From: a virus
Virus record (IMG/VR): IMGVR_UViG_3300010397_000088
Span: 1 to 23,915 of that record
Strand: one strand, 5' to 3'
DNA length: 23,915 nucleotides
Shown here: positions 14,599 to 23,915 of the stretch, one piece after another
Numbering within the stretch: position 1 is the first letter of the stretch
How the letters are laid out: the number at the start of each line of letters is the position of its first letter
Made by a program: the position numbers and the translations under genes
The notes under the pieces: model-generated
The model's input: the letters and a program-made list of their open reading frames with translations, nothing else
Databases searched by the model: none
What the model was told of the DNA's origin: nothing

Positions 14599-16041
14599 AT
14601 GAGTCTGTCCGCCGCCCAGAAGCTGGCCCTGCTCCCGGCCGCCCTGCGCAGCGCCTGGCTCAAGCAGCAGTCCCGCGACACCCTGGAAGAAATCCAGAAG
14701 GGCGCGTGGTGGTGGGTCGGCCGCCCCGAGCAGTTCAAGCCCCCCGGCGACTGGCTGGTCTGGCTGATCCTGTCCGGCCGAGGCTGGGGCAAGACCCGCA
14801 CCGGCGCTGAAGACCTCCTCGACCGCGTCTTCAAGCACCCCATCGACGTGTTCGGGCAGCGCACCGAGTGGCTGGTCATCGCCGAAACCCTCAACGACTG
14901 CCGCACCGCGTGCATCGAGGGCAACTCCGGCATCCTGTCGGTGCTGACCAGGATGGGCTACACGAAGCGGCCAGCGGCGGCCGTACTGAAGGACAAGGAG
15001 TACCACTACTGGAAGTCCCCGAAGCTGATGATCGAGTTCGCCTCCGGGCAGATCATCTACTTCGAGGGCGCGGACAACGCCGACGTCGGGCGTGGCTACA
15101 ACGCTGCTGGGCTGTGGGCCGACGAGCTGGCCAAGTGGCGCTACACGTGGAATGCCTGGTACGAGGGCATCCTGCCGTCGCTTCGGGCCCCGCTGATCGA
15201 CGACCACCCGCGCGCGGTCATCACCACCACCCCGAAGCCGATCAAGCTGCTGATCGAGTGGAAGCACAAGACCGACGGCACGGTCGTCATCACCACCGGG
15301 TCGATCTTCGACAACATCATGAACCTGTCGAAGCACGTGGTGGAGGAGCTGAAGAAGCTCTACGAGGGCACCCGCGCCGGGCTGCAGGAGCTGTACGGCC
15401 ACCTGATCGAGGAGGTCGAGGGCGCACTCTGGGAGCGCCCCATGATCGAAAACAATCGGGTGAAGCCCCGTGAGCTGCCTGAACTGAAGCAGATCGTCGT
15501 CTCCATGGACCCCGGCGCAACCGGCTCCGGAGACGAGACCGGCCTCATCGTCGCCGGTCGCGACTACAACGGCCAGGACTACGTCCTCGCCGACGGCACC
15601 AAGAAGATCGTCGGGCACGCCGCCGCACGGCTAGCCTGGGAAACCTTCCGCACCTGGGGCGCGACCTGGCTGATCATCGAGACGAACATGGGCAAGAAGT
15701 GGCTCATGCAGGTCGTCACCGACGCGTACAAGGAGATGCAAGGCGAAGGCCTGTTCGAGCCTGGGCCGCCGCCGGTCAAGGAAGTCACCTCGCTGGCAGG
15801 CAAGAAGCTGCGCGCCGAGCCGGTCGCCTCGCGCTACGAGCAGAACCGCTGGCACCACGCTGGCACGTTCATCGAGCTGGAAGACCAGATGTGCACGTGG
15901 GTGCCCGAGGACGCCGCCTCCCCCGACCGGATCGACGCCTTGGTCCAGGCTGGGCTGTACCTGATGGGCCACGAGAACAAGCTGATCCGCATCTCCGCCC
16001 CCGCAAACGTGGTGATGCCTGTCAGCTCCCCGTACGGCTAG
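14599..16041 (+). CDS. terL: Terminase large subunit
   Basis: 480 residues, full length. Walker A is SGRGWGKT (residues 59-66), Walker B is GLWADE (171-176), and the nuclease domain starts with SMDPGATGSGDETG (about 305). IIETNMGKKW and SPDRIDALVQAGLYL (about 451) supply further acidic positions. It cuts and translocates DNA into the capsid. Only a weak ribosome site precedes ATG 14599; GTTTTCGATC lies immediately in front. Portal is 6 kb downstream, not adjacent as usual. Confidence 0.93.
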   Translation: MSLSAAQKLALLPAALRSAWLKQQSRDTLEEIQKGAWWWVGRPEQFKPPGDWLVWLILSGRGWGKTRTGAEDLLDRVFKHPIDVFGQRTEWLVIAETLNDCRTACIEGNSGILSVLTRMGYTKRPAAAVLKDKEYHYWKSPKLMIEFASGQIIYFEGADNADVGRGYNAAGLWADELAKWRYTWNAWYEGILPSLRAPLIDDHPRAVITTTPKPIKLLIEWKHKTDGTVVITTGSIFDNIMNLSKHVVEELKKLYEGTRAGLQELYGHLIEEVEGALWERPMIENNRVKPRELPELKQIVVSMDPGATGSGDETGLIVAGRDYNGQDYVLADGTKKIVGHAAARLAWETFRTWGATWLIIETNMGKKWLMQVVTDAYKEMQGEGLFEPGPPPVKEVTSLAGKKLRAEPVASRYEQNRWHHAGTFIELEDQMCTWVPEDAASPDRIDALVQAGLYLMGHENKLIRISAPANVVMPVSSPYG

Positions 16042-17752: not shown

Positions 17753-17825
17753 GGGGAGGTAGCCCAATTGGCAGAGGCTAAGGGGTAGACCCGGAAAAGT
17801 GCAGGTTCAAGTCCTGCTCTCCCCT
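17753..17825 (+). tRNA. tRNA-like gene, anticodon arm abnormal (perhaps Leu TAG)
   Basis: 73 bases. Acceptor GGGGAGG / TCTCCCC (one G-U), D arm AGCCCAATTGGCAGAGGC, and T arm GCAGG-TTCAAGT-CCTGC are good. The anticodon region (17779-17800) does not form a 5-bp stem with 7-base loop; the best fold is GGG / CCC with 5-base loop GTAGA and A-G mismatches below. If TAG is the anticodon it would read CUA (Leu). No CCA is encoded. Function as a decoding tRNA is doubtful. Confidence 0.6.
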
Positions 17826-17852
17826 CGACAGACCCGACCATGAGGAGGAACC

Positions 17853-18110
17853 ATGCCCGGCACCATCACCCTGTACCAGGTCGTCCAAGGCCGGGTGCAC
17901 GAGGCGGTCACCAGCACCGAGCTGTACTTCACCATCACCGCCCCCGACGGCAGCATCTCCCTGCACCCCCTGCGCGCCGTCATCGACGCCGAGATCGAAC
18001 GCGTCCGCCAGGCCGCCATCGCCGCCTACCAGCAGCAGGACAAGCAGGAGGAGCAGACCGACGAACTGGCCCTCCTGCTCATCGACGACCCGCAGCCCAA
18101 GACCAACTGA
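17853..18110 (+). CDS. Small protein between tRNA-like genes (85 aa)
   Basis: ATG with GAGGAGGAA 4-5 bases upstream. MPGTITLYQVVQGRVHEAVTSTELYFTITAPDGSISLHPLRAVIDAEIERVRQAAIAAYQQQDKQEEQTDE has a beta-rich start and a helical, Gln/Glu-rich C-terminal half. No known family. It lies only 6 bases before the next tRNA-like gene, so messenger and tRNA-like RNAs are made from one transcript and must be processed. Confidence 0.7.
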   Translation: MPGTITLYQVVQGRVHEAVTSTELYFTITAPDGSISLHPLRAVIDAEIERVRQAAIAAYQQQDKQEEQTDELALLLIDDPQPKTN

Positions 18111-18115
18111 ACAAC

Positions 18116-18176
18116 GGGGAAGGCAGGGAGCGCAGGGCCGAAAGCCCTGGCCCGGGTTCGACGCCCGGCTTCCCCT
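18116..18176 (+). tRNA. Shortened tRNA-like gene, Phe(GAA)-like, D arm nearly absent
   Basis: 61 bases. Acceptor GGGGAAG / CTTCCCC is perfect; T arm CCGGG-TTCGACG-CCCGG is perfect. Between them are only 10 bases (18123-18132) where the D arm should be, then CAGGGC-CGAAA-GCCCTG, a 6-bp stem with a 5-base loop; a normal Phe loop CTGAAAA lacks two bases here, including U33. The variable region is 2 bases. Compare D-armless mitochondrial tRNAs; probably not a normal decoder. Confidence 0.5.
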
Positions 18177-18283
18177 CGCGAAGGAACACCAGGTGTCATC
18201 GACTAGCGGCCGACAGGCTCGGCGGGACTCGACGACTGCTCAGCCTGGTGCCAACCGATGCCGCCGGACCCGAGCACCCGGCG
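18177..18283 (+). other. Structured spacer
   Basis: No gene seen. CACCAGG (18187-18193) and CCTGGTG (18244-18250) form a perfect 7-bp outer stem with shorter pairings inside (GCCGAC / region of GGCGGG). Confidence 0.4.
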
Positions 18284-18391
18284 GACCCTGTAGCTCAGCA
18301 GCGCCCCGGAGCCCGTTTAAGGGATCACAGGGGCCGGATAGAGCACCTGCCTCACGGCAGGAGGTCGGCGGTTCAAATCCGTCCAGGGTCA
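18284..18391 (+). tRNA. tRNA-like gene, Val(CAC)-like, with 36-base D-loop insertion
   Basis: 108 bases. Acceptor GACCCTG / CAGGGTC perfect; T arm GGCGG-TTCAAAT-CCGTC (one G-U). D arm reads AGCTCAGC, then a 36-base insertion (18300-18335) folding as GCCCC...GGGGC, then GGATAGAGC; removing it restores a standard D arm. The anticodon stem CCTGC / GCAGG is perfect but its loop is only 6 bases (CTCACG), shortened further to TCAC if C-G pairs. The 5-base variable loop AGGTC is normal. Confidence 0.75.
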
Positions 18392-18613
18392 CGAGGTGAC
18401 CACCGTGTTCGTACGTGAGGGGACCGGGAGCAAAAGCGGCTAGTACCGCCGGTAAAGCTCGGCACGACGTACGGGACGGGGCTGGCGCTTCCCGAAGGTC
18501 CGGCCCACCACAACGGGCCTGGTAACAGGAACGGCCAGGAAGGACCCACCGCCCGGACACGGGAAGCACGGTGAGCTGGGGGCATGCCCCGGAGACCCTG
18601 ATAGGCCAAGTAC
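18392..18613 (+). other. Structured spacer
   Basis: No gene seen in 222 bases. Several stems: GCGG-ctagta-CCGC (about 18438-18457) inside a GAGC / GCTC pair, CGTACGT...CGTACG, GGCCC / GGGCC and CCTGG / CCAGG. These look like folded RNA rather than coding sequence. Confidence 0.4.
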
Positions 18614-18684
18614 CGCCGCGTAGCTCAAATGGCAGAGCTGGGGCCCAAAGCCCTGGGTTGGAGGTTCGAGTCCTCCCGTGGCAC
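18614..18684 (+). tRNA. tRNA-like gene with 5-base anticodon loop and initiator-like marks
   Basis: 71 bases. D arm AGCTCAAATGGCAGAGC and T arm GGAGG-TTCGAGT-CCTCC are normal, and the 5-base variable loop GGGTT resembles Trp tRNAs. Acceptor CGCCGCG / CGTGGCA pairs six of seven with C1 opposite A72, a mark of initiator tRNA. The anticodon stem GGGGC / GCCCT has a 5-base loop CCAAA (Trp loop CTCCAAA minus CT), or alternatively a 7-base loop CCCAAAG without U33. It keeps elongator-type C11-G24. Confidence 0.7.
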
Positions 18685-18685
18685 T

Positions 18686-18763
18686 GGTCCAGGGGCACCG
18701 TCAAGGTCAGCGGAATCGCCGTGCACAGCGTGGCTGAAACCAGACGGAGACTGGCCCTGGACC
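18686..18763 (+). other. Stem-loop spacer between tRNA-like genes
   Basis: Perfect 9-bp stem GGTCCAGGG (18686-18694) / CCCTGGACC (18755-18763) encloses inner pairs such as CAGC / GCTG. It fills the gap between two tRNA-like genes almost exactly and might be a processing element or a further, more divergent tRNA-like unit. Confidence 0.4.
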
Positions 18764-18772
18764 GCCCAGCAA

Positions 18773-18855
18773 GGCGACGTAGCTCAGCGGTAGAGCAGCG
18801 CGTGCCGGAGTACTACGACACGCGAAGGCCGGAGGTTCAAGTCCTCCCGTCGCCA
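18773..18855 (+). tRNA. tRNA-like gene with 14-base anticodon loop
   Basis: 83 bases. Acceptor GGCGACG / CGTCGCC perfect, D arm AGCTCAGCGGTAGAGC standard, T arm GGAGG-TTCAAGT-CCTCC perfect. The anticodon stem CGCGTG / CACGCG (6 bp, perfect) closes a 14-base loop (18805-18818: CCGGAGTACTACGA), twice normal. The variable region AAGGCC is 6 bases. A 7-8 base loop insertion or intron is possible; the isotype cannot be fixed. Confidence 0.65.
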
Positions 18856-19055
18856 CGGATGCACGCACCAGGTAGGCCAGCGCCAGTGAGCGGGGCCCAT
18901 GATCCGGGACGTGCTGTCGACCGGGGAAACCCGCAGGCATGCGGCATGCCGTTGTACCGGTCGGCGGGTCGCCAGACGACGCGATCAAAAATCCCCGTGG
19001 CCACGGCGTGGTTTTGTCGTCTGGCGACCTACCACGCGTCCTAAGAGGAGGCAAA
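18856..19055 (+). other. Structured spacer leading to 19056 gene
   Basis: No gene seen. It holds the perfect 14-bp hairpin listed at 18967-19029 and a GGCATG-CG-GCATGCC palindrome near 18935-18950, then the ribosome site AGAGGAGG. Confidence 0.5.
18967..19029 (+). ncRNA. Long hairpin RNA (14-bp perfect stem)
   Basis: GGTCGCCAGACGAC (18967-18980) and GTCGTCTGGCGACC (19016-19029) are perfectly complementary. The 35-base inside has AAAA / TTTT pairing, a CCGTGGCCACGG core and a GATCAAAA motif. It ends 26 bases before ATG 19056, so it could be a 5' control element, a processing hairpin or a terminator. Confidence 0.55.
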
Positions 19056-19244
19056 ATGGCTGACCAGAAGCCCGCGAAGAACGTGCGGAAACTCATCGCC
19101 GACAAGACGAAGCAGCAGCCGAAGCCGAAGCGGATGCCGACCGTCGCGAAGGAGTTGCGCATGCGCAAGAAGCCCAAGCCGAAGCAGCAGCCCGCCAACG
19201 TGTTGAAGCTGATCACCGACGCGCTCCGCCGGAAGGGGGAATGA
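19056..19244 (+). CDS. Small Lys-rich protein (62 aa)
   Basis: ATG with AGAGGAGG 4-5 bases upstream. MADQKPAKNVRKLIADKTKQQPKPKRMPTVAKELRMRKKPKPKQQPANVLKLITDALRRKGE is strongly basic with repeated KPK/KQQP segments and a repeated helix (NVRKLIADK / NVLKLITDA), suggesting an internal duplication. RNA or DNA binding is plausible given its place inside a tRNA-like cluster. The frame extends upstream but without a ribosome site. Confidence 0.7.
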   Translation: MADQKPAKNVRKLIADKTKQQPKPKRMPTVAKELRMRKKPKPKQQPANVLKLITDALRRKGE

Positions 19245-19483
19245 TGCCGAACGCCTACGACCCGCCGAAGTGGGAGCCTCCGCCTCGCGCCGGGGATGAG
19301 GGGCCGATCCAGCTCGGCGAGGCTGTCGGTGTTGCGCTCGCCGCTGTGCACACCTGCGGGAACGACGTTGGCGAGGTCTGCGAGTGGCTGATGGCCTACC
19401 TCAGCGACTGGGCCGACGAGATCCGCCGTGAGGCGAACGAGGCCACCGCCGCGAAGCTGGTAGCGAAGGAGCGCTGGCAGTGA
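19241..19483 (+). CDS. Small acidic protein (80 aa)
   Basis: ATG 19241 overlaps the previous stop (ATGA); an ATG at 19244 is also possible. GGAAGGGGGA is the ribosome site. PNAYDPPKWEPPPRAGDEGPIQLGEAVGVALAAVHTCGNDVGEVCEWLMAYLSDWADEIRREANEATAAKLVAKE is helical and acidic after a Pro-rich head, opposite in charge to its neighbour, so they might bind each other. Function unknown. Confidence 0.7.
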   Translation: MMPNAYDPPKWEPPPRAGDEGPIQLGEAVGVALAAVHTCGNDVGEVCEWLMAYLSDWADEIRREANEATAAKLVAKERWQ

Positions 19484-19692
19484 CCGTCGCGCTTGAGGCC
19501 CCGCCCCGGTTTGTGCGTCTCGGCCCGAATAGCGTGGTGCGGGTCGGTGCGCTCGCCGGTACCGACACCCCGCACCGGCACGCCGCCGATAAGGGGACCG
19601 GGTCGTCGTGTCTGGCCTGCTTCGGGTGGGCCGACGATGTCCGGCACTTGGTGCGTGTTCCGCGCGTACGCCGGAAATCGGCCCCGAATTAG
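19480..19692 (+). CDS. Conserved small phage protein (70 aa)
   Basis: GTG start in a GTGA overlap. The C-terminal part has GTGSSCLACFGWADDVRHLVRV, a CxxCFGW-DDxRHLVR pattern common in Streptomyces phage early proteins; the CxxC may bind metal. Function unknown. It is the last gene before the second part of the tRNA-like cluster. Confidence 0.7.
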   Translation: MTVALEAPPRFVRLGPNSVVRVGALAGTDTPHRHAADKGTGSSCLACFGWADDVRHLVRVPRVRRKSAPN

Positions 19693-19763
19693 GTTACTGG
19701 CGGGTACGGGTGCCAGAAAACACGGGGAAACACCCCGCAGGATACGATCAAAATAGAACAAAG

Positions 19764-19864
19764 GCCCCGACGGTAAGTGGATCGAGCGCTCGCCCTGCGC
19801 GCCGTCACCTGGCAAAGCCGCCCCACCGAGGGGAGGCGAGGTGGTTCGAGTCCACCATGGGGCA
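19764..19864 (+). tRNA. Aberrant tRNA-like element, very large anticodon-loop region
   Basis: 101 bases, the weakest member. Acceptor GCCCCGA / ATGGGGC pairs six of seven (one G-U, one A-A); T arm GGTGG-TTCGAGT-CCACC is perfect. The D-like part ACGGTAAGTGGATCGAGC aligns to a normal D arm but pairs poorly. A CTCGCC / GGCGAG stem encloses about 40 bases with a CCCC-accga-GGGG hairpin where a 7-base loop is expected, leaving no variable loop. Confidence 0.45.
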
Positions 19865-20032
19865 CTTCTCCCAGCGCCCTGGACGCGAGTCCCTGGGGGA
19901 TATGACTGGCCCCTACGGTCGAACGGCTCTTCTATTTCGGGCGTCAGGTCCGGGAGCCGGAGTGAGGAGGTCCCGGTGGAGATCACGGGCTTGAAGCCGG
20001 GCCGGTAGCAAACCTCCCCGTAGGGGAACCAT
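19865..20032 (+). other. Structured spacer between the last two tRNA-like genes
   Basis: No gene seen. CGGCTC / GAGCCG (19924-19929 / 19954-19959) and a GGAGGT...ACCTCC pairing around 19967-20016 with GGC-ttgaa-GCC inside suggest folded RNA. CCCC-gtag-GGG lies just before the last tRNA-like gene. Confidence 0.4.
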
Positions 20033-20132
20033 GGCGAGGTAGCTCAATGCCAGCGGAGTGACGTCCGAGGCTGGTAGGTAGAGCGCCGGAGCATATTCCG
20101 GAACGATGCAGGTTCAAGTCCTGCCCTCGCCG
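20033..20132 (+). tRNA. tRNA-like gene, Met(CAT)-like, with 28-base D-loop insertion
   Basis: 100 bases. Acceptor GGCGAGG / CCTCGCC perfect; T arm GCAGG-TTCAAGT-CCTGC perfect. D arm AGCTCAAT is interrupted by a 28-base insertion (20049-20076) with CCAGC / GCTGG hairpin, then GGTAGAGC; without it the arm is standard. Anticodon stem CCGGA / TCCGG is perfect, loop GCATAT has 6 bases and lacks U33. The promoter -35 box begins 2 bases after its end. Confidence 0.75.
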
Positions 20133-22161: not shown

Positions 22162-23915
22162 GTGGGGCTGCTGAAGCGCAAGACCGTTCCGGCCGGAGGG
22201 ATCGACGGCCCCGGCACGCGCCCGGCGGCCCTCACCGCCGCCGCCGTCCCCATCAACCTCGGCGACGCCACCTCCTGGCAGATGTTCAAACTCGGCGACC
22301 ACCGCTGGCAGTGGGAGTCATGGAGGCACTACGACATCTGCGGCGAGCTGCGCTTTGTCGTAAACTGGATCGGCAACGCCGTCTCTCGCTGCCGCCTGTA
22401 CGCCGCTGACGTCTCCGACGACGGCACCGTAGGTGATGAGACCAGCGACCTCCAGGCCAAGCTGATCGCCGAGACGATGTTCGGCTCACCTGCCGCGAAG
22501 GCGCAGGCGCAACGCCTGATGGGCGTGAACATGATGGTCGCCGGGGACGTGTTCATCGTCGCCGAGGGCTACCAGAACACCGGCCAGGACGGCACCGCCG
22601 ACACCGACAAGTGGTACGTGTGCTCCTCGTCCGAGGTGTTCCGCCGGGGCGACGACATCATGGTCCGCCGGTCGATCACCCACGGCGGCGGCACGTACCG
22701 GCTGGACCCGAAGAAGGACCTGCTGATCCGGGCGTGGAACCCGCACCCGCGCCGCCACGACGCCGCCGACTCCACCACCCGGGCGATCCTGCCGGTACTG
22801 CGGGAGCTGGAGCAGTGCACCAAGCGGGTGTTCGCCGAGCTGGACTCCCGGCTCGCCGGTGCGGGCATGCTGCTGCTGCCCGACAACATCGACTTCCCCC
22901 GGCAGCCGGACGACCCGACCGGCATCGAGGGTCTGACGGCTGTGCTGACCCGGACGATGGCGACGTCGTTGCAGCAGCGCGACAGCGCCGCCGCGCTGGT
23001 GCCGATCATGTTGCAGGCGTCCGTCGAGGCCCTGGACAAGATCAAGCATCTGACGTTCGACTCGCAGATCTCCGAGCACATCACGGCGATGCGCGAGGCG
23101 GCCGTCAAGCGGATGGCGATGTCGCTGGACATTCCGCCCGAGGTGCTGACCGGTATGGGCGGCACCAATCACTGGTCGGGGTGGCAGATCGAGGAATCCT
23201 CGATCAAGATCCACATCGAGCCGCTGCTCATCCAGCTCGCCGACGCCCTCAACGTCGGCTACTTCCAGCCCGCCCTCAAAGCAGCAGGCGTCAAGAACCC
23301 CGAGAAGAAGACCCTCTGGTTCGACATCGCCGCCCTCACCGTCCGCCCCAACCGCTCCGACCAGGCACTCCAGTTCCAAGAGAAGCAGATCATCAGCAAG
23401 AAGGCCGCCCGCGACAACGCCGCCTTCAACGACGACGACGCCCCCGACGACAAGGAATTGCAGTACGACCTCGTCAAGGCCCTCGTCCTCGCGCAGCCTG
23501 CCTACGCAGGCGACCCCGCCGTGCAGAAAATCCTCGGCCTGCCGAAGATCGCCCTGCCTGCACCGCCAGCCCCTCCGCAGCCCGAAGGCGGAGACATGCT
23601 CAACCCGGGCGACCCCGGCTACGACACGGCAGGCACCGAACCGGCCGACGCCGGGAACCGGCCACTGCCCGGCCTCCCGTCGGTTGCCGAGGCTGAGGCC
23701 GGTGGTGCACCGGCGAAGAAGGGCCAGAAGCTGGGGCAGCTCGCCGCCTCAGCCGTGTACGTGCACGAGCCCTTGTTCTACGCCGCCGACAGCGCCGTAC
23801 GCCGCGCCCTCGAACTGGCCGGTGGCCGCCTGGTGCCCGGTCCTCAGCGCGCCCGCTACGCCGTCCCCAAGCACGAGTTGCACACCATGGTCGTCCCCAC
23901 CGACAACCGGGTACC
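22162..23915 (+). CDS. Portal protein (C terminus beyond window)
   Basis: The GTG start at 22162 (ACGGAG just before) opens a frame to the last base, about 584 codons. Portal features: SWQMFKLGDHRWQWESWRHYDICGELRFVVNWIGNAVSRCRLY near the N terminus, AGDVFIVAEG, RAWNPHPRRHDAADSTTRAILPVLRELEQCTKRVFAELDSRL and MREAAVKRMAMSLDIPPEVLTGMGGTNHWSGWQIEESSIKIHIEPLL. These fit actinophage portals (12-mer ring at the head vertex). A long low-complexity C-terminal region begins near residue 470 (PAPPAPPQPEGGDMLNPGDPG), longer than in typical portals. Confidence 0.88.
   Translation, partial: MGLLKRKTVPAGGIDGPGTRPAALTAAAVPINLGDATSWQMFKLGDHRWQWESWRHYDICGELRFVVNWIGNAVSRCRLYAADVSDDGTVGDETSDLQAKLIAETMFGSPAAKAQAQRLMGVNMMVAGDVFIVAEGYQNTGQDGTADTDKWYVCSSSEVFRRGDDIMVRRSITHGGGTYRLDPKKDLLIRAWNPHPRRHDAADSTTRAILPVLRELEQCTKRVFAELDSRLAGAGMLLLPDNIDFPRQPDDPTGIEGLTAVLTRTMATSLQQRDSAAALVPIMLQASVEALDKIKHLTFDSQISEHITAMREAAVKRMAMSLDIPPEVLTGMGGTNHWSGWQIEESSIKIHIEPLLIQLADALNVGYFQPALKAAGVKNPEKKTLWFDIAALTVRPNRSDQALQFQEKQIISKKAARDNAAFNDDDAPDDKELQYDLVKALVLAQPAYAGDPAVQKILGLPKIALPAPPAPPQPEGGDMLNPGDPGYDTAGTEPADAGNRPLPGLPSVAEAEAGGAPAKKGQKLGQLAASAVYVHEPLFYAADSAVRRALELAGGRLVPGPQRARYAVPKHELHTMVVPTDNRV

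Follow-up and report, generated by a model that had tools for sequence, protein, structure and literature searches.

Seven elements with the body of a transfer RNA (tRNA), designated T1–T7, lie 3' of the large terminase gene in a 23.9-kb virus fragment from IMG/VR (IMGVR_UViG_3300010397_000088; this whole stretch of 23,915 nucleotides is called the window below). The original prediction, made from the letters of the window, had listed tRNA-like genes without a normal anticodon loop at these seven sites, and all of the sites exist. Comparison with related phages indicates that selection keeps the acceptor–T–D body of the elements and not their decoding. As the best explanation we propose, with slightly less than even confidence, that they are small structured phage RNAs built on a tRNA body, non-decoding and matured by the host, which would act in trans on tRNA-binding factors, plausibly as anti-defence decoys.

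The comparison is based on about 24 IMG/VR contigs found by a search with the large terminase subunit (TerL), to which their own TerL proteins are 76–89% identical. All relatives of the window phage are metagenomic (uncultured soil phages) and are labelled L001, L002 and so on. The array occupies the same place, from terminase to portal, in these approximately 24 phages; matches to the tRNA model were obtained in every relative, the majority of them 2–6 kb past TerL in the same region.

The seven elements of the window

All seven elements are on the plus strand. T1 (17753..17825) has the tRNA body GGGGAGG...TCTCCCC with the T arm GCAGG/CCTGC and a 22-nt anticodon region, in which three base pairs are closed by GUAGA. 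T2 (18116..18175) is 60 nt long and has a 7-bp acceptor, a perfect T arm and the hairpin AGGGC-CGAAA-GCCCT (loop CGAAA on 5–6 bp), with no D arm. T3 (18284..18390) is a tRNA body of 107 nt whose D loop contains an inserted hairpin; its anticodon position is taken by a 6-bp hairpin with the loop UCAC, which had first been read as the 6-nt loop CUCACG. T4 (18614..18684) is a tRNA body with the 5-nt loop CCAAA on 5 bp and a C1.A72 mismatch, while the tRNA body of T5 (18773..18855) bears a 34-nt anticodon region forming a long arm, with 14 nt past the extended stem. T6 (19764..19864) is divergent: its T arm is perfect (GGTGG/CCACC) and its acceptor has 5–6 bp, but a standard D or anticodon arm is absent; conservation in L002 amounts to 88% over 177 nt. 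T7 (20033..20132) is a tRNA body with a D-loop hairpin and the 6-nt loop GCATAT on 5 bp; in its L002 counterpart the D-loop insert is absent and the loop is GATTTAAA.

A covariance-model and ARAGORN scan, suggested earlier as a check, was run. T1 (35.1 bits), T4 (42.6 bits), T5 (57 bits) and T7 (43.6 bits) are above the gathering score of the Rfam tRNA model (29 bits), which does not match T6; ARAGORN finds T1, T4 and T5 (3/7) and gives T5 a 4-base “anticodon”. A structure-based scanner, for which the T arm and acceptor pairing are required and the D arm is scored, recovers T1–T5 and T7, and in 25 loci it detects 92 elements at a score of at least 30 versus none in 3-mer-shuffled copies. Folding produces full cloverleaves for T3 (z −4.1), T5 (z −3.1) and T7 (z −4.4) and z values of −1.6 to −2.0 for T1, T2, T4 and T6 (−2.0 for T6). 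In T1–T5 and T7 the tRNA body is clear and the anticodon arm departs from the standard form, whereas T6 is the weaker case, with marginal tRNA-likeness. The earlier description of a good acceptor and a T arm with TTCRA, five elements also having a D arm, is borne out by T1, T3, T4, T5 and T7, and it has to be corrected for the structured D-loop insertions of T3 and T7 and for the missing D arm of T2.

Because contigs of three other metagenomes (L001, L002 and L074) contain exactly the same T2 sequence, a single assembly error is excluded.

Three further features were observed around these elements. The initiator-tRNA-like C1.A72 mismatch of T4 (window:18614) recurs at L004:13964, L007:13628 and L017:9216. 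A conserved leader, GGCCGGTAGCRAACCTYCCCG..AGGG..CCATG, precedes T7 (window:19998-20032) and its counterparts in L002, L006, L008 and L016. The spacers between T2, T3 and T4 (window:18176-18283 and 18391-18519) are structured-looking and approximately 80–91% conserved with L001/L002 over the aligned stretch; they may represent further non-coding RNAs.

Conservation of the tRNA body

To count the retained bodies, D-arm motifs were used, which presuppose neither a T arm nor an acceptor, the latter being scored as kept at 6/7 pairs or more. Both the acceptor and the T arm are present at 75 of the 85 D-arm motifs in the family, versus 21/26 in ordinary phage arrays. Compensatory changes affect 8/22 pairs in the alignment of 19 phage orthologues of T3 and 11/36 pairs in the T5-locus family, where four modules of 145–149 nt and two shorter relatives form a three-way junction. 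The trailer N73-C74-G75 is also recurrent (C74 in 46/52 and G75 in 32/52 family bodies), and CCA is rarely encoded. G3.U70 occurs in 2/52 bodies; there is no shared 3:70 identity element, and therefore no single synthetase is implied.

These data bear on the possibility that the elements are decaying tRNA genes, left over from a phage array that was once ordinary. Nearly all anticodon loops are altered and a few near-canonical members are left (L001:9733), as decay would predict, but the acceptor, T and D arms are intact, their stems carry compensatory changes, orthologues are stable over 19–23 phages, and conserved modules have been inserted instead of random indels. The claim that acceptor and T stems were spared from decay is thus upheld: the relatives neither show equal loss of these stems nor possess ordinary 7-nt loops at the same loci. 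We regard the remnant explanation as extremely unlikely.

Decoding capacity

The controls for decoding were 58 ARAGORN tRNAs from the mycobacteriophage Alice and the Streptomyces phages JustBecause and Stigma. Three-base anticodons were assigned in 58/58 controls versus 39/75 family elements, and U33 in 56/58 versus 13/75, although ARAGORN is biased towards standard tRNA forms. Under a strict parse, a 7-nt loop with U33 on a 5-bp stem is found in 0/7 window elements and 2/97 family elements. Ordinary phage arrays, including the loop-mutated phage tRNAs that evade defence (van den Berg 2023, PMC10264068), resemble the window array as clusters of tRNA bodies, but the control arrays keep their anticodons and U33 and can translate, which most elements of the window family cannot.

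The original prediction that no element has a normal anticodon loop therefore stands for the window and is slightly too strong for the family, where L001:9733 has a canonical arm with the loop UUCCUAA, a 7-nt loop, CUGAUCA, is displaced within one large module, and a Cys-like class carries the loop GUGCAAA. The latter sits on a 6–7 bp stem and was observed across different bodies (L001:9574, L002:14727, L004:13751, L016:1349 on the minus strand, and L053:4159).

Such loops, together with some 6- and 8-nt ones and other recognisable anticodons, could suggest unusual working tRNAs: frameshift suppressors, tRNAs with expanded loops or tRNAs with spliced inserts. However, arms with 5-nt loops or tetraloops, as well as armless forms, have no known decoding mechanism, and a missing arm is not restorable by splicing. 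No intron family was matched in the window by Rfam, so a tRNA with a self-splicing intron was rejected, the 5-nt loops and armless forms being equally beyond restoration. We consider working tRNAs very unlikely as the general explanation; for most elements decay, assembly error and decoding are all unlikely. Mimicry of transfer-messenger RNA (tmRNA) or alanine identity was rejected too, as G3.U70 is rare, and neither ARAGORN nor Rfam reports a tmRNA in the window. At E ≤ 1 the window yields tRNA matches alone in Rfam; GOLLD/ROOL or another family was not found, and a GOLLD-type explanation was dropped.

Variation of the anticodon arm

In the family the anticodon arm is a hairpin capped by 3–6 nt, a structured insert of 30–150 nt, or missing. 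Within the anticodon regions GNRA/UNCG/UNAC-type tetraloops cap 10 hairpins, versus 2.4 ± 1.6 in shuffles. At the T1 locus, compared in 23 syntenic phages, the median identity of the body is 0.84 and that of the anticodon region 0.45, which is the level of shuffled sequence; the arms range from 9 nt (L016, armless) to 101 nt (L003) and comprise about 13 distinct inserts. On the same stem L072 has a plain GCAA tetraloop and L002 a 44-nt elaboration. The 19 T3 orthologues bear a 6-bp hairpin with a 3–5 nt loop replacing the anticodon loop, and the T5-locus counterparts in L002, L006, L017 and L019 combine similar bodies with the 145–149 nt module. Armless versions of 57–59 nt occur in L012, L016 and L020, and up to 8 elements may be found per locus.

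This variation could point to scaffold–cassette RNAs, in which the body would provide only maturation and nuclease resistance, while the inserts in the anticodon arm and D loop would be the working parts, aptamer-like, inhibiting host proteins or pairing with targets. The inserts are conserved modules (M1–M9) common to several phages and moved between bodies: M1 is carried by the T1-locus body in L003 and L014 but by another body in L001, and M3 by the T1 body in five phages but by another in L008. Compared with shuffled sequence, the inserts are better folded (mean z −1.13, with 55% below −1), the 145–149 nt module has a covarying three-way junction, and D-loop inserts offer a second variable site for display. 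Nevertheless, the family includes cassette-free armless versions, which are also common in other phages, many arms are merely short capped hairpins, and none of the modules was found outside the window-phage family. We consider this explanation rather unlikely.

Armless tRNA bodies in other viruses

An armless-tRNA pattern, with the letters of the D and T arms fixed and the acceptor left free, was searched in IMG/VR. Among the matches listed (at least 121), 87 have at least 6/7 acceptor pairs and a perfect T stem, the chance level of such pairing being, by our own estimate, about 1–2%. These well-paired matches reduce to at least 53 distinct elements of 53–65 nt in unrelated, diverse phages (contigs of 27–69% GC), mostly away from ordinary tRNAs. 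Among the 53 listed, 6–15 nt separate the D arm and the T stem, pair types vary at each acceptor position, the D-loop GG is present in 52, no ordinary tRNA lies within 3 kb of 38, 42 are intergenic and G3.U70 occurs in 4. Among cultured phages, such elements are present in LBR48, Lb and 3-SAC12 of Lactobacillus brevis; the one in 3-SAC12 is annotated as a pseudo “tRNA-OTHER”.

The pattern was found in 0/298 Hyphomicrobiales genomes, although the viral counts are lower bounds and the rates are not exactly comparable; we rejected the view that the armless elements are common bacterial genes. A link to packaging RNA was likewise rejected, since the neighbouring genes are mixed in function, with a few portal or terminase genes and no clear enrichment.

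These observations point to non-translating viral tRNA-body RNAs as a little-noticed class. A wider reading is possible though doubtful: that armless tRNA bodies form a virosphere-wide class of viral RNA which, in one actinophage-like family, has become a scaffold-and-cassette system with modules swapped at the anticodon and D-loop positions, directed against host tRNA-based immunity.

Among the neighbours of the armless elements (L160-L279) are two TnpB-like proteins (Cas12f1-like TNB / OrfB_IS605) and one Tad2-like Thoeris anti-defence protein. A scan for long inserts in unrelated phages gave a mixed yield, some of the hits being tRNAs whose loops are normal and whose variable arms are long, and was set aside as evidence. 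L319:10274-10768 holds three tRNA-like elements of about 115 nt, two of which directly adjoin each other; next to them are about 30 ordinary tRNAs and a permuted tmRNA; inserts similar to those of L319 (CGTAAAA...ACAGCA) occur in L289, L355, L337 and others. A CTTATAM loop (UAU anticodon by position) combined with a long variable arm recurs in phage tRNAs of the unrelated contigs L298, L302, L341, L352, L363, L374, L381, L384 and L390.

Proposed role

The explanation that we favour starts from what the comparison shows: the three arms that make up the elbow and the top half of the L (acceptor, D and T) are conserved and covarying, whereas the anticodon arm is free to be a short capped hairpin, an exchangeable structured cassette, or absent. 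The conserved parts are those by which RNase P, the CCA-adding enzyme and the enzymes of the tRNA 3' end recognise their substrate, and therefore excision from the late transcript is probable, yielding stable tRNA-like RNAs. Some defence nucleases, like RNase P and the CCA enzyme, act on the acceptor/T/D part of tRNA. As non-translating mimics, the RNAs may occupy or mislead host factors at the elbow and acceptor end, tRNA-targeting defence or toxin proteins being the most plausible, and in an arms race the swapped arms may adjust binding or make it more diverse. Armless versions in the family and elsewhere show that the body alone suffices. The original prediction of RNAs kept for recognition of the tRNA body and not for decoding agrees with the selection on the body, whereas processing and the decoy role are what we infer.

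Several points weigh against this proposal. The array has no linked defence gene; a decoy for a turnover enzyme would have to be highly abundant; recognisable anticodon loops persist in a few elements (the Cys-like GUGCAAA and the displaced CUGAUCA), although a pure elbow decoy would have no use for them; and cis-processing explains the conservation of the body almost as well. In the latter case the bodies would be cutting signals for RNase P and RNase Z in a late terminase–portal polycistronic transcript, with no need for the arm. It is established that substrate recognition by RNase P needs the acceptor–T domain; moreover, the elements are placed between small open reading frames in one orientation, most have C74 (46/52), and the armless elements elsewhere are largely intergenic (42/53 listed). 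On the other hand, T2–T5 stand in tandem in non-coding DNA with no open reading frame between them, a locus may have up to 8 elements, the arm cassettes are conserved and exchanged, and opposite-strand copies occur elsewhere in the genomes of L008, L011, L016, L019 and L025. Cis punctuation is, in our opinion, distinctly unlikely.

Relation to known systems

The role of phage tRNAs has long been debated, from codon compensation to, recently, evasion of tRNA-cutting immunity. tRNA bodies without a decoding arm separate codon compensation from the other ideas: the elements cannot help translation and therefore represent a direct test of tRNA bodies made for other ends. If functional, they would be natural tRNA scaffolds that bear exchangeable modules of RNA. 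They mostly escape annotation pipelines; ARAGORN reports 3/7 in the window.

The tRNA-like domain of tmRNA similarly has an acceptor and a T arm, no anticodon arm, and is processed by RNase P; unlike tmRNA, the window-family elements have no mRNA-like domain, a canonical D stem and rare G3.U70 (2/52; 4/53 listed armless). The murine gammaherpesvirus 68 (MHV68) tRNA-miRNA-encoding RNAs (TMERs) are non-decoding tRNA-like RNAs of an animal herpesvirus made via host tRNA processing, with a cargo hairpin 3' of the tRNA; in the window family the cargo replaces the anticodon arm, and the viruses are unrelated. The Bacillus cereus pseudo-tRNA tRNAOther, which keeps a Trp anticodon (PMC3399842), and the Staphylococcus aureus non-proteogenic tRNA-Gly are also tRNA-like RNAs with extra-translational roles, one of them beside mobile DNA, but they are single bacterial genes without scaffold–cassette exchange. 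GOLLD and ROOL (PMC12286853) are structured phage non-coding RNAs, often beside tRNA genes, but much larger single RNAs. No earlier description of such elements was found in the literature covered, which left out bioRxiv and many subscription papers.

Genomic context and host

TerL (14599..16041, plus strand; Terminase_6N/6C) was the anchor for finding the relatives, and the array begins 1.7 kb and ends 4.1 kb downstream of it, upstream of the portal gene. The latter (22162..23913, plus strand; incomplete at the window end, with the start read from sequence) is the downstream border of the array and the counterpart of a portal-matching protein at L059:6518-8473. Cultured phages gave distant TerL matches only (<60%), and no close TerL relative that could indicate the host via prophages was present among 84,980 bacterial and archaeal genomes; a TerL profile search returned distant alphaproteobacterial-type terminases alone, so a host assignment from it is not supported. 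The portal is nearest to that of Actinoplanes phage phiAsp2 (38% aa), which itself lacks the array.

Proteins with NADAR, ADP-ribosylglycohydrolase, ADP-ribosyltransferase, NUDIX and DUF1810 domains are encoded in the phage family (L059-L062; complete relatives G020 and G010), which suggests counter-defence around NAD or ADP-ribose chemistry.

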